Assembly (NCBI GenBank): GCA_017938215.1
Contig: JAGBBZ010000027.1
Location: forward strand, 1-34,972
From: Eubacterium sp.
Lineage (GTDB): Bacteria > Bacillota > Clostridia > Lachnospirales > Lachnospiraceae
DNA length: 34,972 bases
Direction: 5' to 3'
Made by a program: the position numbers and the translations under genes. Below, piece after piece: positions 1,982 through 34,972 of the stretch (positions are counted from its first letter, which is position 1; each line of letters opens with the position of its first letter). Below the pieces are notes generated by a model, which saw only the letters and a list, made by a program, of their open reading frames with translations, was not told the DNA's origin and made no database searches.

Positions 1982-3127
1982 CTATTCTTGCTCGATAATG
2001 GTAATCTGATCTGGATGAGCAGAAATCTCCTCCTTCAACTCTCTTTCGTAAGCTTCCTTACAGCCCACAGGAACGCATAGCGTCAGTTTCACAAAAGGAG
2101 AAATGCTATCCCCCGACAAATTAAACGGAATCCTCCCTTCCGCGACACATACTAATTCCCCAGCATCGGAGTAATTAATCCTTATTTCCACTTGTTTTAC
2201 ACTTGCCGGTAAGACTATTGTCTTGGCAGTATAGCTCGGAAAGTTAGTTACATATGTTACTCCTTCTGGAATACGCAACACCCCATCTTTCGACACATAT
2301 GTCGCTATCAAATGCCCTGTCTTTTTATTATATAGACATCCATTCTCTACTGCAAATTTCTTACTTCCCTTCGCAACTTTTATCGTCATATCCGCACCTA
2401 TACTAAGCCCCTCAGTTTTTATTTTGGTAACGCTTTGGGGGATAAAAATTTTGAATGCACCCTCATAAATCCTAGGAAGCGACACAATTGTCTTTACTGT
2501 TTTCGGAATAACGAATTTTTTCCTTCTCTCTGCAAAACCATAAAATATTTTCCCATTTTTGGACAGAAAACATCCTTGAACCACCTTATATTTTTTGTGC
2601 TTAGAAGAAATTGTTATCTTCTTCCAGTTTGCCTTCCACAGAAGCCCCTCTACATTTTCATTTACCCCTTTCGGAATATTGATGCTTATCCCATCTGGAA
2701 TATGAGAAAAGCAATCGTATGTTATCTTCTTCACAGTGGAGGGAATCTCGATTTTCTTTATTTTTTTCACTCGTTCATATACATCTTTTGGAGCAGTAGT
2801 AGTCTCACTACCATTTTCCAAAAGGAAACACCCCAAAAAATTCGTTACTCTTTTTTCATTTTTTTTCATGATAGCACGAGATGCTCCCAATTTTACAACT
2901 TTTCTACCATTGATCTTTTTCGGAATCTTCAGTGTAGAAATACCATCATCTGACAATGGAGTAATCTTATTAATAACAATTCCATCTGCTCCAACATGAT
3001 AGTCGTATTGAAACTTGCCAATGGTAGTTGTTGCCCTCTCGTATACTGTCTTTGTTTTTGCTTCAACATGAGAAACCTGTATCCCCCCTATTGCAACCAT
3101 CATTAGTATAAACAACATTTTTTTCAT
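1982..3127 (-). CDS. Secreted BspA-like leucine-rich repeat protein (paralogue 1)
   Basis: About 381 residues. The start at 3127 is chosen because AGGAGG lies 7 nt before it and a typical signal peptide follows (MKKMLFILMM... ending ...SHVEAKT); an in-frame ATG at 3154 lies upstream of that Shine-Dalgarno. The mature part has irregular LRR_5 (BspA/treponemal) repeats with phrases such as IPKTVKTI, IPEGVTYV and LPASVKQVE, and ends in a VPVGCKEAYERE block shared by the two neighbouring paralogues. There is no LPXTG, transmembrane or cell-wall-binding domain, so it is probably released or held by non-covalent contact. Such proteins often bind host or matrix ligands, but the ligand here is unknown. 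It is the most divergent of the three paralogues (1982, 3832, 5540). Confidence 0.8.
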   Translation of the reverse strand: MKKMLFILMMVAIGGIQVSHVEAKTKTVYERATTTIGKFQYDYHVGADGIVINKITPLSDDGISTLKIPKKINGRKVVKLGASRAIMKKNEKRVTNFLGCFLLENGSETTTAPKDVYERVKKIKKIEIPSTVKKITYDCFSHIPDGISINIPKGVNENVEGLLWKANWKKITISSKHKKYKVVQGCFLSKNGKIFYGFAERRKKFVIPKTVKTIVSLPRIYEGAFKIFIPQSVTKIKTEGLSIGADMTIKVAKGSKKFAVENGCLYNKKTGHLIATYVSKDGVLRIPEGVTYVTNFPSYTAKTIVLPASVKQVEIRINYSDAGELVCVAEGRIPFNLSGDSISPFVKLTLCVPVGCKEAYERELKEEISAHPDQITIIEQE

Positions 3128-3158
3128 TGTAGAACCTCCTAGTATTTTATTCATATTT

Positions 3159-3188
3159 TGTCATATTAACATGACATAAGTATGACAT
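3159..3188 (-). promoter_or_regulatory. Pho-box-like tandem TGTCAT repeats upstream of LRR paralogue 1
   Basis: On the minus strand two ATGTCAT heptamers are separated by 4 bp (11-bp period), followed by an inverted TATGACA. This is the geometry of OmpR/PhoB-family sites and is close to the E. coli Pho-box pattern (CTGTCAT, 4 bp, CTGTCAT). The upstream region of LRR paralogue 3 aligns with it. The regulator is not in the window; the assignment is inferred from geometry only. Confidence 0.4.
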
Positions 3189-3214
3189 TTAACTCATATT
3201 TATTTCCTTTTACT

Positions 3215-3825
3215 TCATTTGGACGGATAGGTTGGATAATATGTTAAATTCTGATCCACCTGCCGTACAAATTCTGAAAACTTTGTCAACGTATATCCAA
3301 ATGTTGTTCCATATGTCGCTGTAGCTCCAGGAAGCAAATCCTTCGCAAGAATATACTTCCAGCCATCATCTGAAAAATTCTTTATATCTTTCCTCATTTC
3401 ATCTGCATATTAAAATAGCTTCCCTCAACACATCCCGTCTCTTCAAATGTGGTAATCTCACTTTCATTCTCCGGAATCAATGCCGCTTCTGTCTCTGCGT
3501 CTTTCTGCACCTCTGTTATCTGCGGTGCATTTTCCTCGTACTTCTCTTTGTACTCATCGTAATGCTTCAGTGCATACTCAGCATCCACCAGACCATTTCC
3601 ATAGGCTTCCTCTTCGCCATATTGGTTTGCGCTTTCATTCAGCAAGCCACGGACAAAATCCGCGGATACACTTGGGTCCTTCTGCCAAATCAAAGATGCC
3701 ACCGCTGCGATCTGTGGTGCTGCAAGACTGGTTCCGGAAACCACTTCCTCTGTACCGATAAATCCTGTAGTACGTACCACTTCTCCCGGTGCCACGATTT
3801 CCACTTCTTCTCCTTCCCTGCGATT
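3215..3825 (-). pseudogene. 3' remnant of a subtilase gene fused by frameshift to a decayed hydrolase-like tail
   Basis: Reading from 3825, the frame gives the end of an S8 subtilase: VEIVAPGEVV, then SGTSLAAPQIAAV with the catalytic Ser, then a short linker ending GSYFN. Asp and His catalytic motifs are missing, and an in-frame stop at 3826 closes the frame just 6 bp from the LRR stop at 3832. Near 3397 the reading shifts frame into ADEMRKDIKNF...KYILAK. That block matches the fragment at 6932-7372, but about 90 residues are deleted before DLLPG. There is no proper start and no ribosome binding site. I read it as a recombination scar, not a working gene; the two open stretches overlap at 3394-3397. 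Confidence 0.7.
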
Positions 3826-3831
3826 TTATGG

Positions 3832-4956
3832 TTATTGTTCCTGTTCAATGTAAGTAACGTTTACAGAACGGTCAAATTTCAATGCTTGTTCATAAATAGA
3901 TATACAACCTTTCGGAACGTAGACGATTACATTTTTTACCCCGTTTGTTATTGCACAGGTAAACTTTGGCGGTTTCTTTCCTTTCATAACAAACTCCCCG
4001 TCGGGTCCCTCAAAAAAACCGAGTACTCTATCTAATTTTTCTACACTTGCCGGTACAATTATTTTTTGCGCTTTCTTCCCAAGAAAACCATCATATGATG
4101 TAGCGTATATTACACCTTCCGGTATCTGAAACACACCATTTGGTGCACTTCCTGCCACAAGTCTTCCCGTTTTCTTATTATAAATGCAGCCATATTTCAC
4201 TCCATATGTTTTGTTTCCTTTTGCAATTTTTATTGTCACTTGGGTATTTATATTAAGACCTTCATCCTCAATCTTTTTCAAGCTTTTCGGAAGTATTATT
4301 GTTGATACACCATCGTAAGCTACCGAAACAGATTTCATTATTTTTACTGTTTTTGGAACTACGATTTTCTCTTTCTTTATAACTGGTCCATATAACACTT
4401 TCCCATCCTTAGACAGTAAGCAGCCATTTTTTATCTTATACCATTTATTTTTTGAAGATATTTTAAATTTTTTCCAATTGTAACCCACTAAATCCTCAAC
4501 ATCCTTACTTACGCCTTGTGGGATATTGATACTCTTCTCGTGCTGAATCATATTAAAACAACTCGGCGTTATCACTTTCACCGTTTCAGGAATCTGAATC
4601 TTCTTTATTTTCTCTGTTCTTATATGAATTTTCTTGGGCGTATATCCATATTTTGCCTCATCTGGCGCATTACTTACACCAAACAGATTAACGCCTTCTT
4701 CATCCGGTTCTCTATCTCTAGGACCGAGCTTTACCACTTTCTTTCCTTTGATCTTTTCTGGAATTGCTAGTGTTTCAATCCCCTTATCAGAACAGGGAAT
4801 TATTTGTGTTATCCAATATCCCCCCTTGGTTGGTTTATACTCAAACTCGTAGTTTCCTCGAACAACTGAATCCGTCCACGCTTTTGATTCATTTACATTA
4901 AGCATTCCCAAAGCAAGAAACGCCATTAGTACAAATAGTTTTCTCATTTGATACAT
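3832..4956 (-). CDS. Secreted BspA-like leucine-rich repeat protein (paralogue 2)
   Basis: A 374-residue LRR_5 protein close to paralogue 3; both begin their mature part with WTDS or YTDS, then GNYEFEY and KIxGKKVVKLGP. The signal peptide is MRKLFVLMAFLALGMLNVNE...A. The start at 4956 has GAAAGGA 7 nt upstream; a second ATG at 4947 is also possible. Repeats such as IPETVKVI, VPKTVKIM and LPKSLKKIE are visible, and the C-terminus has the shared YVPKGCISIYEQA block. No anchor motif is seen. The stop is followed within 6 bp by the subtilase remnant, so its downstream end is a recombination junction. It differs from paralogue 1 in lacking TGTCAT repeats upstream; instead a 63-bp hairpin lies about 75 bp before the start. 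Confidence 0.8.
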   Translation of the reverse strand: MYQMRKLFVLMAFLALGMLNVNESKAWTDSVVRGNYEFEYKPTKGGYWITQIIPCSDKGIETLAIPEKIKGKKVVKLGPRDREPDEEGVNLFGVSNAPDEAKYGYTPKKIHIRTEKIKKIQIPETVKVITPSCFNMIQHEKSINIPQGVSKDVEDLVGYNWKKFKISSKNKWYKIKNGCLLSKDGKVLYGPVIKKEKIVVPKTVKIMKSVSVAYDGVSTIILPKSLKKIEDEGLNINTQVTIKIAKGNKTYGVKYGCIYNKKTGRLVAGSAPNGVFQIPEGVIYATSYDGFLGKKAQKIIVPASVEKLDRVLGFFEGPDGEFVMKGKKPPKFTCAITNGVKNVIVYVPKGCISIYEQALKFDRSVNVTYIEQEQ

Positions 4957-5030
4957 TTACCTATCCTTTCTCATAATTGTTATTCGTAACTTTACCCACT
5001 CCTAATTACGCGAAAATTCTTCAAATTAAA

Positions 5031-5093
5031 AGAAGGTACAGCATAATTCATTCTGATAAATAATACGTCAGATTGTTTTATCCTGTACCTTCT
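5031..5093. repeat. 63-bp imperfect palindrome (possible MITE-like element)
   Basis: The ends AGAAGGTACAG (5031-5041) and CTGTACCTTCT (5083-5093) are a perfect 11-bp inverted repeat. Inside, ATAA/TTAT and TCTGA/TCAGA pairs allow one long hairpin. It lies between the LRR2 start and the transposon-gene remnant. The bases to about 5187 also hold smaller hairpins (GCAGGAA/TTCCTGC, CCATAGG/CCTATGG), typical of a transposon gene's 5' end. Confidence 0.45.
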
Positions 5094-5187
5094 GTTATTA
5101 TATCAATGCCACTGTTAACAAAAGAAGCAGGAACCTCCCCGACCAAAGTTTGGTTTCCTGCCTCGCTCACACACCATAGGCACGCCT

Positions 5188-5559
5188 ATGGGCTACAAGA
5201 CTATGATAACCATTTTTGAAGAAGAAAGCAATCCCTTAACACAAAATTTTTATAATAATCTTATCAACTCCCTGCAGTTTCACAACCTGACCTGCACCTG
5301 CGGACACTCTGCCTGTCTTTCCATACACGGTTACTACACACGTTCCTTAAAAACACCGGAAGGAAAGATTCCTTTGCGTATCTGCCGTGTCATCTGTTCC
5401 TGCTGTCACCGCACCCACGCACTTCTACCTTCCTCCGTGGTTCCTTATTCACAGGTTGCTCTGAAAGAACACATTGATATCATTTCCTCATACGAAGATG
5501 GAGAAGGTTTTACAGTTCCTATGAATCACAATCCATATTTTACTGTTTTTTCTCAATGA
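5188..5559 (+). pseudogene. Truncated DUF6431 (transposon-associated zinc-ribbon) gene
   Basis: The only plus-strand coding piece in this region. The first ~105 residues match my memory of the DUF6431 family found with Clostridial transposable elements: MITIFEEESNPLTQNFY, a Cys-rich pair (CTCGHSAC, then CSCCHRTHALLPSS) and VPYSQVALKEHIDIIS. The family continues past NxNP into a further ~50 or more residues. Here the similarity stops at HNPY and the frame runs into the end of the neighbouring LRR gene, overlapping it tail to tail by 20 bp. The likely original start is the ATG at 5203. It is probably a dead remnant cut by the same rearrangement that placed the LRR gene. Confidence 0.65.
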
Positions 5560-6730
5560 AGGTGACGGTTAGGGAACTATACTCTTTAAACTTTTTCCCC
5601 CATGCTTTCTCATAAGCAGCTTTCACTCCTTTAGGAACATATACTGCTACATTTTTTATTCCTTGATGAACTAACAAGCAAGAAAGTTTAGGTGGTTTCT
5701 TTGCTTGCATAACAATTTCGCAATCCGGTCCGTCGAAGAAATTCAATATCCTATCTAATTTTTTCACGGTTGATGGTACAATCATCTTTTGAGTACCACC
5801 TCCAAACCAATGACTTCCCGTATCATCATATCTCACTCCAACAGAGACATAATACCCTGTAACATACGTCACGCCATGTGGAATATGGAGTACTCCATTT
5901 GGCGCACTTCCCGTCACCAATTTTCCCGTTTTCTTATTATAAAGACACCCATGTTTTGCTGCATATTTTTTATTTCCCTTGGCAACCTTTATTGTCACTT
6001 TGCTGGAAATCTGAAATCCATCATTTTCAATCTTACGCAGCCCTTTCGGAAGCACAATGGTAGATGTGTCATCATAGGCCGTTGCTGCACCTAACATCAT
6101 TTTCGTCACTGTCTTGGGCATCACTACTTTATCTCTCTCTTCTAATAATCCATACACAATTTTCCCATCTTTTGATAGCAAACAGCCATTCACTTTCTTA
6201 TACTTTTTGTTTTTCGGAGATATTGTGAATTTTTTCCATTTGTAATAAGTCAACCCCGTAACATTCTTCACCACTCCTTTTGGAATATTGATACTTTTTC
6301 CATCTTGCAAATGAATAAATGTCATTCCTGTTATTTCTTTTACTGTTTCCGGAATCCGTATTCTTTTTATCTTCTTGGTGCGCTCATAGATATCCATTGG
6401 CCAACAAGGAGTATCTGCGTCATCCGGTGCAAGCCTTACACCAAATACATTCTCCTCATATTCCTCATTTTCCCACTCCCCATTTTCAGGCTCTTTCGGC
6501 CCAAGCTTCACAACTTTTTTTCCTTCTATCTTTGCAGGAATCTTTAGCATCGAAATCCCCTCATCGGCTAATGGTGTTATCTTCGTGATCCAGATGCCTC
6601 CGTTGGTATATTCATACTCAAATTCGTAGTTCCCTTGAATGACTGAATCGGTATACGCCTGTGCTTGATTGACATTCAGAAAGCCTAATAAAAAAAGAGT
6701 TAAGAATAGTGCTATTTTCTTCAATTTCAA
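5540..6730 (-). CDS. Secreted BspA-like leucine-rich repeat protein (paralogue 3)
   Basis: About 396 residues and the longest of the three paralogues. The start is TTG; two in-frame TTG codons are possible, at 6730 and 6724, and the second has better spacing (8 nt) from GGAGG. The signal peptide is KKIALFLTLFLLGFLNVN...AYTDS. The LRR_5 repeats include IPETVKEI, MPKTVTKMM and LPKGLRKIE, and the C-terminus has the YVPKGVKAAYEKA block. A Gly-rich insertion near residue 305 (DDTGSHWFGGG) is absent from paralogue 2. A GTAACGA hairpin lies 25-30 nt before the start, and a TGTCATAG inverted repeat lies further up. The end overlaps the DUF6431 remnant by 20 bp. Confidence 0.8.
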   Translation of the reverse strand: MKLKKIALFLTLFLLGFLNVNQAQAYTDSVIQGNYEFEYEYTNGGIWITKITPLADEGISMLKIPAKIEGKKVVKLGPKEPENGEWENEEYEENVFGVRLAPDDADTPCWPMDIYERTKKIKRIRIPETVKEITGMTFIHLQDGKSINIPKGVVKNVTGLTYYKWKKFTISPKNKKYKKVNGCLLSKDGKIVYGLLEERDKVVMPKTVTKMMLGAATAYDDTSTIVLPKGLRKIENDGFQISSKVTIKVAKGNKKYAAKHGCLYNKKTGKLVTGSAPNGVLHIPHGVTYVTGYYVSVGVRYDDTGSHWFGGGTQKMIVPSTVKKLDRILNFFDGPDCEIVMQAKKPPKLSCLLVHQGIKNVAVYVPKGVKAAYEKAWGKKFKEYSSLTVTFIEKKQ

Positions 6731-13505: not shown

Positions 13506-14393
13506 TTACTCTATTCCAAAATAATCCAGATACGCTTTATATCGATCCTGCGCTGACAAGCACGTATCTCTCAAATACCCTCTTTCCTTTTTCCACTCTT
13601 TCAATCCACGATAATAAAACAATTTCATATCATCCTCTATGATAAATGGAACAATATCGTACTTGAGACATTCTTTAAACATAATCAACCGGCCCACACG
13701 ACCATTTCCATCTTGAAATGGATGAATCCGTTCAAAATTCACATGAAATTCTAAGATGTCTTCCAGTGTCTTGCGTCCTTTTTGATTATACTCAGCCAGC
13801 AATTTCTTCATTTTTTCCGGCACTTCCTCTGGCAATGCGGTTGCCATCCCACCAACTTCATTGGCTCGTTTTTTATAATCCCCCACTGCAAACCAGTCAC
13901 GCCTAGCATCGCTGGTTCCATTTTTTAAGATGAAATGCAATTCTTTGATGTTTTTTGCTGACAGCGTTGCTTTTGCATTGTCAATAATCGTATCAATACA
14001 CCGAAAATGATTGGCAGTCTCAATCACATCATCCACGTTTAACACTTCATTCTCCACACCAATTGTGTTGGTTTCGAAGATGTAGCGCGTTTGGTCATGG
14101 GTCAAACGACTTCCTTCCATGTGGTTCGAATTATACGTCAATTCGATCTGTGTCTTATGATAGATTCCCCCAGCGTATCTGCGCTTCTTCTCATCCTGCA
14201 GTACTTCTAATAAAGTAAGCGGTTCTTTCACTTTTTTATTGGTTCGCTCCGGCTTCTGCGCGTCCTCTGGTATATTCCACGTCTTTCCGGTAAGAAATGC
14301 ACCTTCAACTCGATCATTGGCACAATAATTCCTTACACTACGTTCTGAAACCTCCCATTTTTTCGCCATTTCTGCCACTGAAAGATATCTCAT
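13506..14393 (-). CDS. Fic-family protein with N-terminal HTH domain
   Basis: About 295 residues. Fic proteins transfer AMP or a related group to hydroxyl side chains of target proteins. The core motif HPFQDGNGR is intact (residues about 224-232). An inhibitory helix motif of the (S/T)xxxE(G/N) form, SNHMEG at about 89-94, lies in front of the Fic core, so this is a class II, self-inhibited Fic. The first ~45 residues (LSVAEMAKKWEVSERSVRNY...) form a helix-turn-helix, which suggests that it binds DNA, probably its own promoter. The start at 14393 is preferred because GGAGG is 7 nt away; ATG 14399 is only 1 nt from it. It is inserted between pth and mfd. The target is unknown. Confidence 0.9.
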   Translation of the reverse strand: MRYLSVAEMAKKWEVSERSVRNYCANDRVEGAFLTGKTWNIPEDAQKPERTNKKVKEPLTLLEVLQDEKKRRYAGGIYHKTQIELTYNSNHMEGSRLTHDQTRYIFETNTIGVENEVLNVDDVIETANHFRCIDTIIDNAKATLSAKNIKELHFILKNGTSDARRDWFAVGDYKKRANEVGGMATALPEEVPEKMKKLLAEYNQKGRKTLEDILEFHVNFERIHPFQDGNGRVGRLIMFKECLKYDIVPFIIEDDMKLFYYRGLKEWKKERGYLRDTCLSAQDRYKAYLDYFGIE

Positions 14394-14445
14394 CCTCATC
14401 CCTCCTGCAAAGATACTAACTACTTGTTTTCATTTCTCTGCACAT

Positions 14446-26149: not shown

Positions 26150-26935
26150 ATGAAGCATTTAATTCAACAACACATCAAATATTTTCTTATCTTTCTTTTT
26201 GTCATGAATAACATTTGTTCTGCTGGCTGTCCTGCTCTTGCAGCCACCAAATTACCCAACTTTGTTATTCTAACTACATACCGGAAAACGGTAAACATCG
26301 GGGACGAATTCTACCTCGGCGCCATTACGTCCAACGGTAGTTTTCCCAAGTGGAAAAGCAGTAATTCCAAAGTCGCCTCGGTAAACACCTACGGGTTAGT
26401 CACGCCCAAAAAGGCCGGGAAAGCCAAGATTACCGCAAAGATTTCCGGCGCAGAAGCCAGCTGTACGGTGACGGTAAAGAAAACAACCATCAGCCTTAGC
26501 AAAAAGACGGTAACTCTTGAGCACGACGAGACCTATCGCCTACGGGCGCAGACCTCCAACGGCAGTTCGGTGACCTACCGTTCCAAGAAAACCAGCGTGG
26601 CATCCATTACCGATGATGGAGTCATTCGTGGTGAAAAGCCCGGCAGCACCACCATCACTGTCATGGCGGATAACACGAAGGTCACTTGCCGTGTCAAGGT
26701 GAAAAAGCCCACAATCCGGTTAAGCAGCACGAAATTAAAATTAAAAGAAGAGGAAGAGCACAAGCTTAGTGCGACCACCTCTTCCGGCTTAGAACCCACC
26801 TGGCGCTCCACAAAGCCCAGCGTGGCAGATGTGGATGATGAAGGAAATGTATATGCCCTCAAACCTGGTACGACACGAATCTGTGTCAGTCTGGATGGCA
26901 CAAAAAAGTACTGTAGCGTCCGCGTCTTGAAGTAA
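26150..26935 (+). CDS. Secreted protein with three bacterial Ig-like (Big_2) domains
   Basis: 261 residues. Signal peptide (YFLIFLFVMNNICSAGC...ALAATK), then three Big_2 repeats of about 70 residues (about 37-110, 111-185, 186-261). Each has a W/Y-x-S pattern followed by SVAS/VAD...G, then KPG or KAG and a terminal TVTVKK-like strand. There is no enzymatic or anchoring domain, so it is simply an Ig-fold stalk, probably released or bound to the surface by charge. GGAGGG lies before the ATG. Its GC and codon use look slightly richer than the LRR genes at the left; that is an impression, not a computed value. Confidence 0.85.
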   Translation: MKHLIQQHIKYFLIFLFVMNNICSAGCPALAATKLPNFVILTTYRKTVNIGDEFYLGAITSNGSFPKWKSSNSKVASVNTYGLVTPKKAGKAKITAKISGAEASCTVTVKKTTISLSKKTVTLEHDETYRLRAQTSNGSSVTYRSKKTSVASITDDGVIRGEKPGSTTITVMADNTKVTCRVKVKKPTIRLSSTKLKLKEEEEHKLSATTSSGLEPTWRSTKPSVADVDDEGNVYALKPGTTRICVSLDGTKKYCSVRVLK

Positions 26936-27061: not shown

Positions 27062-27883
27062 ATGAAAAAGAATATCCTATACTCATACCCTCAGATGGAG
27101 GAAAAATTGCAGGAACTTGCCACTACATACTCTTCGGCGTATTTTAACTACGAATCGCTGGGCACCACGTATCAAAATCGTCACATTTACGCCTGCTACT
27201 TGGGACCTCGAAACGCGAACCGACAGTTCGTCATTACGGCATCCATCCATGGCAGAGAGTATATTAACACCACGGTTCTTCTGGAAATGCTAGAGCACTA
27301 TCTGGCACATTATGAAACGTTGTACCAAAAAGCTTGGGAAGATGTATGCGTTTGCATGATTCCCATGGCAAATCCGGACGGCGTAGCCATCTCCATGACC
27401 ACTGATGCCAAACGTTGGAAAGAAAACGGACAGGGTGTAGACCTAAATCGAAATTTTCCTTGTGGTTTCGGGGAAGCCACCGATCGTCATCGCCAAAATC
27501 CCGGAAATCATCCCGGCGATCAAAAAGAAACGAAAATTCTAATGGATTTCATCAATGATCTGACTTATCCCCTAGCGGTGGTACACTATCATTCCCGTGG
27601 CAATCTAATTTATTATGACTATCAAGTCGGCGGCGTATTGAAAGCGAAAATCTGCCACCTTGCCAATATCGCTCACGCCGTCACCGGCTACCGGCTCGTG
27701 GAGAACACAAAAGACACACGTCCCGCTGGTGGGTTTGGGGATTGGTGTGTCTATGAAAAGAAAATACCGTCCATCACCATTGAAACCGGTTTTCTAAAAA
27801 CCCCAGTCCCAACTTGGCAACGGAACGGTATTTGTTCTCGTAATTTATTCGTTCTTCGTGATCTTCTTACCGGTATTTTGTAA
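27062..27883 (+). CDS. M14-family zinc carboxypeptidase, apparently cytoplasmic
   Basis: 273 residues covering a single peptidase domain. Zinc ligands are HGRE (first His and Glu, about 68-71) and the His in AVVHYHSRG; NPDG, VDLNRNFP and the catalytic Glu in SITIETGF fit the carboxypeptidase fold. The closest known types cut gamma-D-glutamyl-diaminopimelate bonds in wall peptides, which would suit recycling of imported muropeptides. There is no signal peptide, LysM or SH3 domain, so it should act inside the cell; this is an inference. AGGAAGG lies 12 nt before the ATG, rather far. Its last 39 bp overlap the end of the convergent sulfotransferase gene. Confidence 0.9.
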   Translation: MKKNILYSYPQMEEKLQELATTYSSAYFNYESLGTTYQNRHIYACYLGPRNANRQFVITASIHGREYINTTVLLEMLEHYLAHYETLYQKAWEDVCVCMIPMANPDGVAISMTTDAKRWKENGQGVDLNRNFPCGFGEATDRHRQNPGNHPGDQKETKILMDFINDLTYPLAVVHYHSRGNLIYYDYQVGGVLKAKICHLANIAHAVTGYRLVENTKDTRPAGGFGDWCVYEKKIPSITIETGFLKTPVPTWQRNGICSRNLFVLRDLLTGIL

Positions 27884-29863
27884 CTCATCCCCCAGCTGGA
27901 TGTAAATCTCATACTGATCCGGTGGGAGTGTATCCAACCACATAACAATACTATACTCTAATGTTTCAAAGATTTTCATCGTCTGATAGGTATCCGCAAA
28001 CTCCACATACCAAACCGATTCCAAGCCACGGAAATACACTTTCTTCACCGCATGATCCACCTCACGGATATAGAAAAGATCTTCTTGTCTACGATAGCTA
28101 ATAGACGGCTCACGCACAGATGGCGCCACTTCAAAGTTCAAACGTTCCACCTGATCCTCAGCCAATGGTTCCGGACGCTTCAAATCACCACATATATAAT
28201 CCGTGTTTTTAACCAAAGCCTTGGATAAAGACGCCATATCCGGTTCAAACGGATGGGCACGGAAAAATCCCGGTTTCACATAAAACTCGCCCAACACTTC
28301 CATGGTATCAAAATCATACTCGATGATCATTCCACGGTTTTCTTCGATGTTTGGCTCCAAATCTCCCGCCATGGCATACAGGCGTCGACTTTCCTTGTCA
28401 AACACCGCATTGGAACGGATCTTTGACTTCGGACATGGGAATCGTTTGTACAATTCCACCGTTCTATCCTTCTCATTTACTTTATAAAAACTAATGTAAC
28501 TATCCTTATCTTTGTCAAAAAACTTCACCGGACGGCGTTTGTGCCAATGGTTATCGAATACCATGACATAACGAATATCCGGATTATCATTTTCTTCCGG
28601 CTCCACTTCAAACACCGCATGCTGCTGATAGAACCAAGGAACATCACCAATCGGGGTCAATAACTTCTCTGCCGTCGGTGTCCCTTCCCAGAATCGAGGA
28701 TCTGCCATCACCCATTTAATCTCATTCTTGCCCCAGTCAAACTTGGCAACGGAATGAATATTTCTCATGGAAACCAACATGGAATCCTGCTCTCTATCAT
28801 AAGACGCTGAGTTAATGTGCGCCCAATCCATCATATCCTGGTATTTATCGTCAAAAAGATCGCCCACTTTGATCTGATGAACAATGTTTCCTGTCTCTCG
28901 ATCAATCTCTAAGATCAAGTCTTCCGAATGCTCTTCCAGACTGTTTCCCGCAGTCAATATATTGCCCGCCAATGTCTTCTCTTCCACCGTATGATGAGCA
29001 CCATTTTTCACAAGATAGGTTCTGCCCACACGTCCCAAGTAATCCATGTCATACATCTGCACGGAATGAGGATTCGTGTAAGATGGTGCTGAGATTTCTC
29101 GCTCCATGAAAAGAAAACGCCCCTTGGACAATGGAAAAATTCCATATCCCTTCGGTTTTCTCTCCAGATAATATCGAATCTGCCCTGCTCGGTCGAACAC
29201 ACATGGACGAATATCAATACCACCAGCCACTAGAATATTATCAAAGGCAGGATTTGGATTCGCTTTCTTCACCGAAATAACATCTTGCAGATCATCTGGC
29301 AACGGATCTGTGGTAAGTGGAAATGTCCTGCTGTCGCAAGGCTCTCCATTTTCATCCAAAAGTTCAATCACAACATCTGTGCTTCGTCCCGGATACAACC
29401 CAATAATCGGAATCCGATGTCGCTTCTCCGGTGGATATTCAAAGACAAAATCTGTCTCCGGAGTATCGCCCTTTACCGTAGCTCGAACACCATAATCCAT
29501 AATGGTCGTGAACAATACAAGTGCTGTCAATGGTGCTTCACTAAATGGATTCATCACTACCAGCATGTTCTTGAAGGTATACTTTTCGCTTCGAAGCTCC
29601 AATTCCAAGAACCAATCTCTCGCCTGAGATGTCACGGAATACATCTTCTCTTTTTTAATGTTTCCTCGAAGACACTTTGCCTGTGGACGGCGAAACATTC
29701 CTTCATACTCCACAGAACCTTTTTTTACCCATATGGTCGGACGAACCGTAATGGTTCCACCATTGTCATGAAACACTTCTTTTTTTCGCGCTCTCCGGAA
29801 CGTACGATACTTTCTGCGAGCTTTCTTGATTTTCTTTCTTAACTTGTCTGCTACATTACTCAT
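27845..29863 (-). CDS. Arylsulfate sulfotransferase (ASST family), cytoplasmic form
   Basis: 672 residues. ASSTs move a sulfuryl group from one phenolic sulfate to another acceptor through a sulfo-histidine. An N-terminal beta domain (about 35-190) is followed by a beta-propeller with the expected catalytic set: His290/His291 (GAHHT), His349 (DWAHINS), Arg367 (SMRN) and His415 (YQQHA). Known enzymes are periplasmic or exported; here there is no signal peptide, and the first 28 residues are strongly basic (KLRKKIKKARRKYR), about half Lys/Arg. AGGAGA lies 9 nt before the ATG. It is the last gene of the cysD-cysN-cysC unit (42 nt after cysC), so its sulfate source probably traces to APS/PAPS. 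The acceptor is unknown. Confidence 0.88.
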   Translation of the reverse strand: MSNVADKLRKKIKKARRKYRTFRRARKKEVFHDNGGTITVRPTIWVKKGSVEYEGMFRRPQAKCLRGNIKKEKMYSVTSQARDWFLELELRSEKYTFKNMLVVMNPFSEAPLTALVLFTTIMDYGVRATVKGDTPETDFVFEYPPEKRHRIPIIGLYPGRSTDVVIELLDENGEPCDSRTFPLTTDPLPDDLQDVISVKKANPNPAFDNILVAGGIDIRPCVFDRAGQIRYYLERKPKGYGIFPLSKGRFLFMEREISAPSYTNPHSVQMYDMDYLGRVGRTYLVKNGAHHTVEEKTLAGNILTAGNSLEEHSEDLILEIDRETGNIVHQIKVGDLFDDKYQDMMDWAHINSASYDREQDSMLVSMRNIHSVAKFDWGKNEIKWVMADPRFWEGTPTAEKLLTPIGDVPWFYQQHAVFEVEPEENDNPDIRYVMVFDNHWHKRRPVKFFDKDKDSYISFYKVNEKDRTVELYKRFPCPKSKIRSNAVFDKESRRLYAMAGDLEPNIEENRGMIIEYDFDTMEVLGEFYVKPGFFRAHPFEPDMASLSKALVKNTDYICGDLKRPEPLAEDQVERLNFEVAPSVREPSISYRRQEDLFYIREVDHAVKKVYFRGLESVWYVEFADTYQTMKIFETLEYSIVMWLDTLPPDQYEIYIQLGDELQNTGKKITKNE

Positions 29864-29905
29864 CTGTTCATTCTCCTAATCAGTCGCTTACAACGCTATA
29901 TTTAC

Positions 29906-30505
29906 TTATAGCATTCCCTTTACGACCAACTCATAAACCTGTTTTGCACATTCTACGGGTGAATATTTCACCGTATCCAGCACAATTTCCGGATTCAACG
30001 GCTCTTCATATGAAGAATCTTTTCCGGTAAAATTCTTTATCTGCTTTTTGTATAACCCTTTGGGATCACGTTCCATACAGGTTTCAAAATCAGTATTTAC
30101 ATAAACTTCGATAAAATTCCCCTCTCCAGCTCGCTCTCTGGCAAACTGTCGCATCTTGCGAAACGGAGAAATAAAGGATACCAACGTAATGATACCTGCA
30201 TCCTGAAACAAAGCTGCAATCTCGCTGATTCGACGAATGTTCTCATTACGATCTTCGTCCGAAAAACCAAGATCCGAGTTGATGCCACAACGGATGTTAT
30301 CACCATCTAAAAGATAAACGGCTTTCCCCGCCTCATTGAGCATCTTCTCTAATTCTACTGCCACCGTAGATTTACCGGACCCTGAAAGCCCGGTAAACCA
30401 TACGACAACACCTTTTTGCCCCAACACCTTGCAACGATCCTCATAGGATACTTTGTTGTTGTGCCAGACAATATTTTCATTTTTATTTTGCGATACGTCC
30501 TTCAT
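29906..30505 (-). CDS. cysC: Adenylylsulfate kinase
   Basis: 199 residues. It phosphorylates APS with ATP to PAPS. All motifs are intact: P-loop GLSGSGKS (39-46), DGDNIR (67-72), FISPFR for APS binding (111-116), and DPKGLYKKQ (147-155). An N-terminal extension of about 30 residues with VWHNNKVSYEDR is usual for this family. GAAAGG lies 8 nt before the ATG. It begins 19 nt after cysN. As CysN carries a damaged copy of the same domain, this stand-alone enzyme must do the kinase work. Confidence 0.96.
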   Translation of the reverse strand: MKDVSQNKNENIVWHNNKVSYEDRCKVLGQKGVVVWFTGLSGSGKSTVAVELEKMLNEAGKAVYLLDGDNIRCGINSDLGFSDEDRNENIRRISEIAALFQDAGIITLVSFISPFRKMRQFARERAGEGNFIEVYVNTDFETCMERDPKGLYKKQIKNFTGKDSSYEEPLNPEIVLDTVKYSPVECAKQVYELVVKGML

Positions 30506-30524
30506 GTTCGTAACCTTTCAATGA

Positions 30525-32315
30525 CTAACTAAAGATAATTCCTTTATCTTTCAGGAGTGTCTTAATCTTATTGATGTTTTTGCTGTAATCAAAGTCACTA
30601 TCCTTCAACTGAACATCTGCTTTGATATCCGTAGTCACTTTGTCACCAACCCAGATGATATCCATCTCACCCTGGATAACGGTCTTCATGATCTTTCGAT
30701 CGGACTCAGTTAATCCGGTTGCTGTTACGATAAGTACCATACCGGCATCCAACATCAAGTTCGCAACCTCGGCAAAACGACGAATCTGCTCTTTGTGATC
30801 CTCATCTGCCAATTTCTTTGTATCCGCACCAACACCATACAAATAGGAACCGATACCCATGTAATATACGTATCTTCCACTATCCAAAAGTGTCTTCTCC
30901 AACGCTTTCGCCAAATCCTTCTTACCAGTGTTCTTCTCACCAGTCAATACGATCAGCTCCGGACGCTGTGCGTAATGCTCGATACGAGCTTCAATATCAA
31001 TCTCACTGGTCTCCCACTTGTAGTTACGGAGCATTGCACTGGAACGGATTTCGCTTTCTTCATCCTCCAATGCCTCTGTGATGATACCACCACCAGCGAT
31101 TTCATAATCATCTACAATAACAAAACGGCTTGTGCTTGCGCCATCTGCCACAAGGTCGAAGGCGATTGGCTTATCGGTGCGAAGGATAACCTCTGCCACC
31201 TCATGACGCTCGACCCCTTGCTTTTCCTCTGCTGCAGAAAGGTTGGAAGAGTTGATAACACCTTTGATCTTCTCCACTTCCACCTTAACCTTCTCGCCAC
31301 CAATCTTCAAGAAATACACTTTTCCCGGAACAAAGTCCTTTTTCCCCAACCAGAAGATGTTTGCCGAAATACGAGAAGCTGTCTTCGGTTGTGGCTCACC
31401 AGCGATGGCCATAACCTCTCCACGTGTGATATAAATCTGCTCCTGCATGGTAAATCCGATTGCCATACCCGGCTTTCCTTCTTCGATCGGAGCTGTATTA
31501 AAGGACTCAATGGTCTTTACATGACTCTTCTTTCCCGATGGATAGAAAATAATCTCCTGCCCCGGACGAATGGTACCGGTCTCAATGGTTCCTGCGATGA
31601 TACGACGATCGTCCCCATCTCTTGTAAACTTGTACACATCCTGTACCGGCATACGGAATGGCTGCTTGTCATTTTCCTGCTCATTTTCAAATTCATCCAA
31701 CACCTGCAAAATGGACATTCCATCATACCAAGGCATCTTGTCACTCTTCGCAACAATATTCTCGCCTTGGAACGCACTTACAGGAAGCACAAATGCTGGC
31801 TCGATGTCGATTTCTTTCAAGAACGCCAAGTACTCTTCTTTTACTTTTTCATACACTTCCTGGCTGTAATCCACCAAGTCCATCTTGTTAATAACGACAG
31901 CAATCTGCTGAATACCAAGCATGGAAAGCATATAAGCATGACGTCTTGTATTTTCCTGTACACCCTCTGCTGCATCAATCATCAAAAGAGCCGCCTGTGC
32001 ACGGGAAGCTCCGGTAATCATGTTCTTCAAAAATTCGATATGTCCCGGTGCATCCAAAATAATATAATCACGTTTGTCAGTCTTAAAGAAACATCTTGCT
32101 GTATCAATGGTAATACCCTGAGACTGCTCGTCCTTCAACGCATCCAACAAGAACGCATACTCAAATGGCTTTGAATTGCGGCGGCATGTCTCTTTTACCT
32201 GCTCTAATTTACCCTCTGGTAAAGAATCTGTATCGGCCAACAAACGACCCATCAACGTACTCTTACCGTGATCCACATGACCAACGATAACAATATTCAT
32301 ATCTTCTTTTTTCAT
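30525..32315 (-). CDS. cysN: Sulfate adenylyltransferase GTPase subunit with degenerate C-terminal APS-kinase domain
   Basis: 596 residues. With CysD it makes APS from ATP and sulfate, driven by GTP hydrolysis. The GTPase part is complete: GHVDHGKS (12-19), DAPGH (88-92), NKMD (143-146); two EF-Tu-like beta domains run to about 415. From about 450 a CysC-like domain follows ([15 protein letters not shown] aligns with the kinase), but its P-loop is GEKNTGKK (459-466, Lys in place of Ser/Thr), DGDN is absent, and the APS-binding FISPFR is TATGLT. So it looks like a former CysNC fusion with a dead kinase domain. The ATG overlaps the cysD stop (TAATG), implying translational coupling. Confidence 0.95.
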
Positions 32316-33196
32316 TACATGTAGCCATCCTTCCTCAATTCTTCCAATCCGCCGCCACCTTCTTTGTCCTGGGCACGGCCGGAACGCTCTGCGATGTTCG
32401 CAAATTTACCAGTCTTCAACTCTTCGATAATCTCACGCACATTTTTCGCGGTGGACTCCACTGGTGTGGTACAAGGAGCACATCCAAGGGAACGATATCT
32501 TGTTCCATCTCCCTGATCGAAATACAATGGCACAACCGGAATATTTTCTCTCTCGATATACTCCCAGATATCCAACTCGGTCCAATCCAACAATGGATGA
32601 ACACGTACGTGAGTCCCCGGTGCCCAATCTGTCTTATACTGGTTCCAGAATTCTGGTGGCTGATCCCCTACATCCCAATCATTATTCTTGTCTCGTGGTG
32701 AGAAGTAACGCTCCTTCGAACGACTTCCTTCCTCATCCGCACGAACACCTACGATAACGCCGGTGTATGGCTCGATATTAACATCCTTTTCATAGATGCC
32801 TTTGCTATGGTTAAAACGATAACGTGGCCAAGACGCATTCAAGGTATTGGCAAGAGCAGTTGACTTCAATGCTCGACAACACTCAATGTGACTTACATTT
32901 CCATCCGGGAATGTAGCTTTCTGCTCTAATGCCTCTGTGTTCTCGCCGTAAATCATATCAAGATTCCATTCAGCGGCAAGACGGTCACGATATTCGATCA
33001 TTTCTTTGATTTTGAAATGGGTATCTACGTGAACAAGAGGGATTGGCACATGTCCGAAAAACGCCTTTCTAGCAAGCCAGAGAAGCACGGTACTGTCCTT
33101 TCCGATTGACCAGAGCATACACAAATTTCCAAGCTCACTGTAAGCTTCACGTAAAATATGAACGCTCTTATACTCCAACATATCCAAATGATCCAT
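32315..33196 (-). CDS. cysD: Sulfate adenylyltransferase small subunit
   Basis: About 293 residues. It is the catalytic adenylyltransferase partner of CysN. Family marks: [19 protein letters not shown] (PP-loop), [55 protein letters not shown] and [14 protein letters not shown], full length to the [14 protein letters not shown] end. The start at 33196 ([11 protein letters not shown]) is chosen because AGAGG lies 9 nt upstream and it matches relatives; in-frame ATGs at 33205 and 33223 are poorer. It is the first gene of the operon, behind a strong promoter. No cysH, cysIJ or sulfite reductase gene is in the window. Confidence 0.96.
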
Positions 33197-33278
33197 TGCT
33201 TTCATCCTCTCATTTCTGCACATTTTATTGCAAATAATGGAAAAAGAAACTTCTTTCCCACTATGCTCTATTCTTTAT

Positions 33279-33307
33279 ATTTTACAAAATTGTAACAATA
33301 CTGTCAA
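33279..33307 (-). promoter_or_regulatory. Promoter of the cysD-cysN-cysC-sulfotransferase operon
   Basis: TTGACA (33302-33307), exact 17-bp spacer, TAAAAT (33279-33284). In the leader, GGGAAAGAAG and CTTTTTCC (about 33239-33260) can form a hairpin. No S-box or CymR-like site was recognised. Confidence 0.8.
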
Positions 33308-34194: not shown

Positions 34195-34972
34195 TCACTT
34201 CTTAATGGTTATCTTCTTGGTTCCACACCATTTTCCCGGTTCCCCATCTTCCACTTCGTCGGATTGCATATACGCACGAAATTGGAAATAATATGTTTTC
34301 CCTTTTTTCAATCCGCGAAATACACCTCCGCGACCTTCCTCTTCGATGGCATTGGACATGTCTTTATTCTCCGAGTAGCGAACATCATAGTACCCAAAGT
34401 CTTGATACGTCTCACTATCATCAATGTTAACATGAACGGTTCCTTTCTTCGGATTCGTAATCGAATACTTAAACCACAGTGGGCGAAGAACCACTTTGGT
34501 ATCATCCGGGCCGATATCTGTAAAGAAATATCCTCCATCATCATCCATTTTATCCCGATAATTCCAAGCCACCAACGTATAGCCTTTTTTCTTTACGTTA
34601 AATGGAATTTTTACTGTCGTTCCATACTCGTAAGAAGTAGGAAGTTTCCCTGTCTTTTTTCCGCCAAGCAGTTTGTAACGAATCGGAATCCGCTTTCCTC
34701 TCGACTTACCGGTTTTCCCTTTGGGAATCTTCGTGGTCTTTTTTCCTTTCACTTTCCAGATGCGATTTCCTTTGCAATTATCTACGCGAAGGGTTATCTT
34801 CGAACGGTTGACAATGGTCTTGAGACTTGGGCATTCCTCAGTTATGTCCTTTGTCCATGATTTCAAAGATTTCGAAACCACAAGCTTCTTTAAGTTCGTG
34901 CAGCCATCGAATGCGTAAGCGCCTATTTCCTTCACTGAATCCGGTAGGATAACAGTTTCCAGTTGTCTGCAA
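34195..34972 (-). CDS. C-terminal part of a BspA-like leucine-rich repeat surface protein (cut by window edge)
   Basis: At least 258 codons; the frame is open to the right edge, so the N-terminus is missing. It begins inside LRR_5 repeats (CRQLETVILPDSVKEIGAYAF, DGCTNLKKLVVSKSL). After about residue 55 it changes to a Lys/Gly-rich beta region with an InlB B-repeat-like phrase (GYTLVAWNYRD), and ends in a fibronectin III-like domain (YDVRYSENKDMSNA ... LKKGKTYYFQFRAYM...WCGTKKITIKK). It is not a close copy of the three LRR genes at the left, since their C-terminal YVPKGC block is absent. Probably secreted. Its stop lies 33 bp before the next promoter, with no separate terminator. Confidence 0.8.
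   Translation of the reverse strand, partial: CRQLETVILPDSVKEIGAYAFDGCTNLKKLVVSKSLKSWTKDITEECPSLKTIVNRSKITLRVDNCKGNRIWKVKGKKTTKIPKGKTGKSRGKRIPIRYKLLGGKKTGKLPTSYEYGTTVKIPFNVKKKGYTLVAWNYRDKMDDDGGYFFTDIGPDDTKVVLRPLWFKYSITNPKKGTVHVNIDDSETYQDFGYYDVRYSENKDMSNAIEEEGRGGVFRGLKKGKTYYFQFRAYMQSDEVEDGEPGKWCGTKKITIKK

Follow-up and report, generated by a model that had tools for sequence, protein, structure and literature searches.

The window, a stretch of 34,972 nucleotides on a contig of a gut-type Eubacterium sp. (Lachnospiraceae), carries a run of cysD, cysN, cysC and an arylsulfotransferase gene (ASST) on the minus strand (Table 1). The tight spacing described in an earlier sequence-only reading was confirmed, with a 1-nt overlap of cysD and cysN (TAATG) and gaps of 19 nt and 42 nt between cysN and cysC and between cysC and ASST, respectively. 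CysD, CysN and CysC exceeded the cut-offs of NF003587, TIGR02034 and TIGR00455, so all three sulfate activation activities are encoded. CysD fell below the TIGR02039 cut-off (237 vs 396.6 bits), and the window ASST had no NCBIfam match. Since many relatives have a CysD of 293 aa, the true start of cysD is probably an internal Met near position ~33196. The earlier reading had also placed the four genes under one promoter: a promoter-like site does lie upstream of cysD, but sites of this class were no commoner in the region than in shuffles (14 vs 14.8), so we regard a single promoter for all four genes as plausible. No Rfam model matched within the window. Profile scanning of its 31 proteins detected neither a sulfite reductase nor an APS/PAPS reductase, the PF01507 domain of CysD aside, in line with the earlier claim that no such enzyme is encoded nearby.

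Table 1. Coordinates of the features of the cysDNC-ASST locus in the window
Feature	Position	Strand	Evidence
Promoter-like site TTGACA-17-TAAAAT, upstream of cysD	33279..33307	(-)	11/12 matches; such sites not enriched over shuffles
cysD, sulfate adenylyltransferase small subunit	32315..33223	(-)	NF003587 356 bits vs cut-off 195; PF01507
cysN, sulfate adenylyltransferase GTPase subunit with C-terminal APS-kinase-like domain	30525..32315	(-)	TIGR02034 367 bits vs 336.1
Degenerate APS-kinase domain of CysN, ~residues 437-559	30639..31007	(-)	PF01583 43.9 bits over residues 453-559; Walker A ends GKK, not GKS
cysC, APS kinase, GLSGSGKST and LDGD motifs intact	29906..30505	(-)	TIGR00455 240 bits vs 138.7; PF01583 209 bits vs 21.1
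ASST, PF05935/PF17425 arylsulfotransferase, 672 aa, basic N-terminus, without hydrophobic N-terminus	27845..29863	(-)	PF05935 165.6 bits vs 24.2; PDB relatives 3elq/4p04; hydropathy
Codon of His415, counterpart of the sulfated His436 in E. coli AssT	28619..28621	(-)	Profile alignment; conservation
Codon of Arg483, position of E. coli AssT Thr501	28415..28417	(-)	Profile alignment, residue comparison

We compared the locus across 39 genomes of the genus. The results showed that ASST lies in the same cluster in all 32 genomes with an APS kinase, so the unit, whose gene-order conservation the earlier reading had proposed to check, is conserved in the genus. ASST directly followed cysC in 26 of these clusters (its frame split in G152, and only its first 173 residues present before the contig end in G177), and in the other six, cysD-cysNC and transporter genes faced ASST (a contig-edge fragment in G157). 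By genome, 32 had both genes, none had APS kinase only, one had ASST only and six had neither, the same-genus genomes being non-independent. Loci L002-L010, on the same contigs as loci already carrying genome handles, were excluded from the counts. Complete four-gene runs were found 20 times among the loci, with the genes on one strand in all 20; the gene order is therefore more than chance. CysQ, the PAP-removing enzyme, exceeded the TIGR01331 cut-off in two of the linked operons outside the genus (G323 and G229), and in the same two operons the ASST had lost its catalytic residues. In G178, the orthologous ASST is located elsewhere and has lost His349, Arg367 and His415, while cysC is followed by an ASST from a different clade.

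Outside the genus, ASST and APS kinase lay within 4.5 kb of each other in 6 of the 16 genomes having both (rough chance estimate, 2e-9). The link occurred in six other genera in differing arrangements, four of them ASST-cysD-cysNC: ASST came first at L177, L178, L179 and L180, the arrangement was divergent at L176, and a chromate-type transporter and two-component genes lay between the linked genes at L046. Family-wide co-occurrence was weak (16 genomes with both, 35 with APS kinase only and 64 with ASST only; p 0.04). The sequence-only reading had named an ASST homologue unlinked to cysDNC in related genomes as evidence against itself. Such homologues were found, making up 47 of the 82 ASSTs in the comparison, but they fell largely in other clades, and a hydrophobic N-terminus was present in 20 of them. 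At least two (L170 and L171), on short or broken contigs, were members of a linked clade. The ASST tree was built quickly and contains long branches and unresolved forks; only its 100% groups were relied on, and the distant ASSTs of L049, L050, L051, L052, L054 and L055 were left out of it. L117 was left out of the residue comparison, and L048, with a frame of 1500 aa, was excluded from the ASST set as too long.

The linked ASSTs look cytosolic, a hydrophobic N-terminus being present by hydropathy in 0 of 35 linked compared to 20 of 47 unlinked proteins. ASSTs lacking a signal peptide are already on record (PMC10932419). In the window ASST, H415, H291, H349, N351 and R367 correspond to His436, His252, His356, Asn358 and Arg374 of AssT, and the sulfo-histidine site was retained in 33 of the 35 linked ASSTs; in this histidine column, entry 4p04 shows Asn where 3elq has His. 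The window protein has Arg483 in place of Thr501, which excerpts of a 2026 review report as conserved in published ASTs (PMC13426309). Arg was present here in 32 of the 35 linked proteins, and Thr in 14 of 15 members of the secreted/lipoprotein set. Arg483 was considered as a marker of PAPS use, and this candidate was weakened: the substitute ASST of G178 has Thr, and Arg also occurs in 16 of the 25 unlinked proteins from the remaining ('other') set, which means that this residue does not mark the cysDNC link.

We then searched the genomes for CysH-type and siroheme sulfite reductases, as the earlier reading had suggested for cysH/cysIJ. CysH exceeded the NF002537 cut-off in none of the 39 genus genomes (positive control: 8 of 14 control genomes), but a PF01077 siroheme sulfite reductase-type protein was found in 16, including 15 of the 32 with APS kinase, where assimilation dependent on the operon is possible. 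No PF01077 protein was detected in 11 genomes of 90-99% completeness having PAPS synthesis and ASST, nor in the window's own genome (68% complete). Assimilation through CysH in that genome was rejected: the sole NF002537 match outside the operon (G000:C38) is BrxP/SspD-like and has SspB and SspC as neighbours, in a defence locus of the DNA-modification type. NF002537 matches also occurred in G179 (similar to G000:C38 and likewise scanned), G162, G183, G185 and G186. Absence of CysH was judged a weak diagnostic, since searching the 51 APS-kinase genomes outside the genus with PF01507 yielded matches of widely varying length and unassigned class, and 35 of these genomes had no ASST.

Because the 11 near-complete genomes have no PF01077 protein and CysH exceeded its cut-off in none of the 39, the genomic evidence supports sulfation well over assimilation as the role of the unit; the conserved order with ASST and the missing hydrophobic N-terminus agree with this, the central claim of the sequence-only reading. 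We consider it likely that the operon is a sulfation module with ASST as its sulfotransferase. It is quite unlikely that the link is regulatory only, with ASST supplying sulfate from aryl sulfates or answering sulfate status while APS/PAPS serves, for example, assimilation. Such a role would suit the 15 genomes with both APS kinase and PF01077, and also G155, whose CysN without an APS-kinase match adjoins a PF01077 gene. However, the 11 near-complete genomes keep the unit without PF01077, the few PF01077 neighbourhoods scanned (L200, L202 and L206) held tetrapyrrole, peptidase or phosphoketolase genes and not cysDNC, and a cytosolic-looking ASST would be poorly placed to take sulfate from aryl sulfates outside the cell.

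The earlier reading had left open whether ASST accepts PAPS or an unseen PAPS sulfotransferase makes an aryl-sulfate carrier. The search for PF00685-type sulfotransferases that it proposed returned matches over the cut-off in 5 of 39 genus genomes, with PF13469 in 2 and either family in 6; neither was found in G108 (99% complete) or in the genome of the window, which is incomplete. A dedicated PAPS sulfotransferase of these types is too rare, and this rarity favours an ASST that takes PAPS. In a two-step route, an unrecognised PAPS-dependent sulfotransferase would make an aryl-sulfate carrier for ASST to use, following the precedent of caprazamycin biosynthesis. Aryl sulfates are what known ASTs use as donors (PMC13426309, in excerpt), the catalytic His is kept in most linked ASSTs, and the few genomes with PF00685 or PF13469 would suit this route, but their scarcity makes it unlikely. 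A divergent or non-P-loop sulfotransferase would be compatible with that scarcity.

We propose instead that the operon would form a self-contained cytosolic sulfation module in which PAPS serves ASST directly. CysD-CysN would convert sulfate and ATP to APS, CysC would phosphorylate APS to PAPS, and ASST would act as the terminal sulfotransferase, most likely by a ping-pong reaction: PAPS, not an aryl sulfate, would sulfate His415 with release of PAP, and sulfo-His415 would pass the sulfate group to a hydroxyl acceptor. A small molecule is the probable acceptor, as no gene for making an acceptor is linked throughout; the operon flanks varied between species, and those scanned held housekeeping or unrelated genes and gave no clue to it. 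We infer both PAPS as direct donor and the kind of acceptor, and give the full mechanism an even chance. Slightly short of even is the wider reading that a cytosolic branch of the ASST beta-propeller turned PAPS-dependent while keeping the sulfo-histidine ping-pong, which would make it a second fold using PAPS, joined with cysDNC in several arrangements across Lachnospiraceae. Against PAPS as donor, excerpts of the 2026 review state that PAPS could not be used by any AST reported to date (PMC13426309). Also counted against the mechanism were the linked ASSTs of G323 and G229 without an active site, the PF01077 proteins, G155 and the weak family-wide co-occurrence.

Other uses of the phosphosulfates were weighed. 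APS is likewise a phosphosulfate anhydride, and G155 (84% complete, fragmented) has ASST, CysD and CysN with no APS-kinase match; APS as the donor is nevertheless very improbable, as 32 of the 33 genus genomes with ASST over the cut-off have APS kinase. Reverse use, in which ASST regenerates PAPS by moving sulfate from aryl sulfates onto PAP and the PAPS is spent elsewhere, has a precedent: HocST and other PAPS-dependent enzymes are reported to re-sulfate PAP with an external donor (PMC13426309, in excerpt). It is most improbable here: cysDNC would be redundant, and no constant PAPS consumer was found among PF00685, PF13469 and CysH.

AssT of E. coli is linked to DsbL/DsbI. BT_0416 of Bacteroides has a SULT-type fold, the caprazamycin route runs through a Cpz8 step and then Cpz4, with PAPS as the ultimate source via Cpz8, and Haliangium HocST belongs to the PAPS-dependent sulfotransferases and is not known as a member of PF05935. 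The window ASST shares its Pfam domain and the five active-site counterparts with AssT of E. coli CFT073 (PDB 3ELQ), of the PAPS-independent AST family EC 2.8.2.22, but differs in Arg483, in the absence of a hydrophobic N-terminus and in its linkage to PAPS-making genes; AssT itself is periplasmic according to the 2026 review (PMC13426309). In Bacteroides, PAPS-making genes likewise adjoin a sulfotransferase in gut bacteria for sulfation, in a cysDNC-BT_0416 cluster reported for cholesterol sulfation, with BT_0416 assayed with PAPS (PMC9417993, in excerpt), whereas the partner here is a PF05935 ASST and not a PF00685-type enzyme. Cpz4 is an ASST-type enzyme in a biosynthetic setting (PMC13426309), but most genomes here have no PF00685 partner and the PAPS genes themselves are the partners. 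HocST, called a putative AST, uses PAPS (PMC13426309), and resembles the proposed ASST in combining the AST label with PAPS use.

For most bacterial ASSTs, the natural substrates are described as an open question (PMC13426309). The family is defined as PAPS-independent, and the repeated linkage of cytosolic-looking ASSTs to PAPS-making genes opens the identity of the donor to direct testing. Should it be PAPS, the family definition changes, a SULT-unrelated sulfotransferase with its own cofactor supply becomes available, and Lachnospiraceae would gain, alongside the route already known from Bacteroides, a predicted capacity for sulfating small molecules. A cysDNC-ASST operon was not found in titles or abstract openings among the matches listed from the open-access literature, with subscription papers mostly outside.

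CysN has an additional, degenerate APS-kinase domain, which the sequence-only description did not include. Its Walker A motif ended in GKK in all 23 operon-type CysN proteins examined, and in GKS in the 5 CysNC fusions examined. We infer that this domain is perhaps a PAPS sensor. Penicillium ATP sulfurylase is reported to be regulated by PAPS through an APS-kinase-like domain (PMC4220642, in excerpt). Both enzymes have such a domain attached to ATP sulfurylase; here, its carrier is CysN, the GTPase subunit of a heteromeric enzyme, and the regulation is putative.

The four genes cysD, cysN, cysC and ASST each scored above a curated family cut-off in profile searches, and they lay at the positions claimed in the sequence-only reading, with the claimed spacings of -1, 19 and 42 nt. 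Many relatives of CysD are 293 aa long, so the start of cysD was probably the downstream one in the table. Among the 39 genus genomes, PF05935 was above cut-off in 33 and APS kinase in 32; ASST was present in all 32 APS-kinase genomes and stood alone in one (G155), and both were absent from six. The genus genomes are related, and the Fisher value for this co-occurrence (2e-6) therefore overstates independence. ASST directly followed cysC in 26 genomes (24 intact frames, a split frame in G152, and a partial one in G177, which ended with the contig after the first 173 residues). In six genomes, ASST was faced by cysD-cysNC and transporter genes (G157 as a contig-edge fragment), and the transporter binding protein of the one such locus scanned (L166) was of the sulfate type (NF008022, 430 bits, cut-off 288). 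All genes shared one strand in 20/20 complete four-gene runs, so the proposed check of gene-order conservation came out positive. The flanking genes varied between species, indicating that the four genes are the unit.

Features of the operon, its surroundings and related loci
Feature	Location	Remark
Promoter-like site TTGACA-17-TAAAAT	window 33307-33279	upstream of cysD
Probable cysD start	window, near 33196
M14 peptidase gene	window 27062-27883	convergent with ASST; 3' end overlapped by the ASST stop
BspA-type leucine-rich repeat proteins (several), one Big_2-repeat protein	window 1982-6730, 26150-26935, 34195-34971	likely surface proteins
Fic/DOC-family protein (PF02661, 72 bits)	window 13506-14399	flanked by transcription-repair coupling factor and peptidyl-tRNA hydrolase genes
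BrxP/SspD-like PAPS-reductase-domain protein with SspB and SspC	L195:5951-12058 (G000:C38)	predicted DNA phosphorothioation-type defence locus
cysD and CysN (no APS-kinase match) adjoining PF01077 sulfite-reductase-like gene	L187:7935-10791 (G155:C114)	assimilation-like in gene content, a contrast inside the genus
Lipoprotein-type ASST	L137:4647-9665	adjoins LysR regulator, Cys/Met PLP enzyme, ThiF-family protein
ASST-family proteins without catalytic His	L178:12521-14440, L179:6746-8671	in cysD-cysNC-cysQ operons; perhaps a regulatory or re-tooled branch
Tandem ASSTs, 552-586 aa	L107:7771-12864 (G181:C6); also G136:C300, G015:C64	alongside double-ASST open frames, 1168-1506 aa

The operon had been read as serving sulfation, not assimilation, and a search for cysH and sulfite reductase elsewhere supported this. 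CysH (NF002537) was above cut-off in 0/39 genus genomes (controls, 8/14); weak matches in 31/39 were mostly CysD. The sulfite-reductase siroheme domain PF01077 was not found in 11 unit-bearing genus genomes of at least 90% completeness, including G108 and G151 at 99%. PF01077-less genomes would thus make PAPS without a sulfate reduction route recognisable from CysH or PF01077. However, PF01077 occurred in 16/39 genus genomes, where the operon could also feed reduction; the few genes scanned next to PF01077 genes were of tetrapyrrole, peptidase or phosphoketolase type. The window corresponds to contig C23 in a genome that is incomplete (1.84 Mb, 68%) and whose CysH candidate outside the operon proved to be the BrxP/SspD-type protein of L195. 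G179 carried a similar locus (L197, SspB-position gene assigned from position alone), and L196 of G186 resembled it in gene lengths.

In the proposed search for sulfotransferases elsewhere, PF00685 was above cut-off in 5/39 genus genomes and PF13469 in 2/39 (six genomes combined), so that, of the families covered, ASST was the sole constant candidate for using PAPS. E. coli AssT His252, His356, Asn358, Arg374 and His436 corresponded to H291, H349, N351, R367 and H415 of the window ASST; the His436 column was confirmed by the 4p04 entry, with Asn there. According to the review PMC13426309, these five residues plus Thr501 form the AST active site and are conserved across published ASTs. Unlike AssT, the window ASST has R483 at the Thr501 position, which was Arg in 32/35 linked ASSTs and Thr in 14/15 secreted or lipoprotein ASSTs; the 25 others included 16 with Arg and 8 with Thr. 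By our own hydropathy rule, rather than a signal-peptide predictor, a hydrophobic N-terminal segment was found in 0/35 linked and 20/47 unlinked ASSTs; signal-peptide-less ASSTs are already described (PMC10932419).

These results suggest with good confidence that the operon is a cytosolic sulfation module. The fuller mechanism, in which PAPS would sulfate His415 and the group would then pass to a hydroxyl acceptor, has about an even chance of being right. The same review (PMC13426309) describes all ASTs to date as unable to use PAPS, with one putative Haliangium AST as the exception. Among working systems, the closest parallel is the PAPS cluster of Bacteroides that contains BT_0416 (PMC9417993), compared with which the ASST-family partner is new; among the literature matches listed, we found no earlier description of PAPS synthesis partnered with such an enzyme.

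Linkage was also surveyed outside the genus. ASST occurred in 82/397 family genomes, most family ASSTs being in genomes without PAPS synthesis. APS kinase matched in 123, many weakly; counting only matches above 60 bits left 51 genomes outside the genus, 16 of which also had ASST. Family-wide co-occurrence was weak (16/35/64/280, the first three being both, APS kinase only and ASST only; p 0.04). The two genes lay <4.5 kb apart in 6/16 (G082, G285, G367, G323, G229, G307). Four of these had the order ASST-cysD-cysNC; another was divergent, and in the last a transporter and two-component pair separated the genes. G323 and G229 added CysQ (TIGR01331, 242.5 and 241.9 bits, cut-off 228.8; under the stricter NF008182), an enzyme that clears the PAP released when PAPS is used.

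In G178, the orthologue of the window ASST (L160, same contig as L010) lay away from cysDNC and had lost His349, Arg367 and His415, while cysC was followed by an ASST from another clade (L159). This arrangement is what would be expected if an active ASST is needed next to the PAPS genes, although it may be a MAG assembly error. However, the substitute had Thr, not Arg, at the Thr501 position, and the linked ASST-family proteins of G323 and G229 had lost the same active site, both of which argue against a simple story.

The C-terminal APS-kinase domain of CysN scored 33-46 bits across the genus, and its Walker A read GKK, not GKS, in 23/23 operon-type CysN examined, whereas CysC kept GLSG(S/A)GKST in 25/25, including one that is fused, and GKST was intact in the five CysNC fusions examined. 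In fungal ATP sulfurylase, PAPS regulates the enzyme by way of a comparable domain (PMC4220642), and we infer that the CysN domain may sense PAPS. Relatives of the window ASST bearing names came from Roseburia, Lachnoclostridium and Eubacterium MAGs and from Eubacterium xylanophilum ATCC 35991. In E. xylanophilum (L009/L153), a 2614-aa open frame lay immediately 3' of ASST on the same strand.
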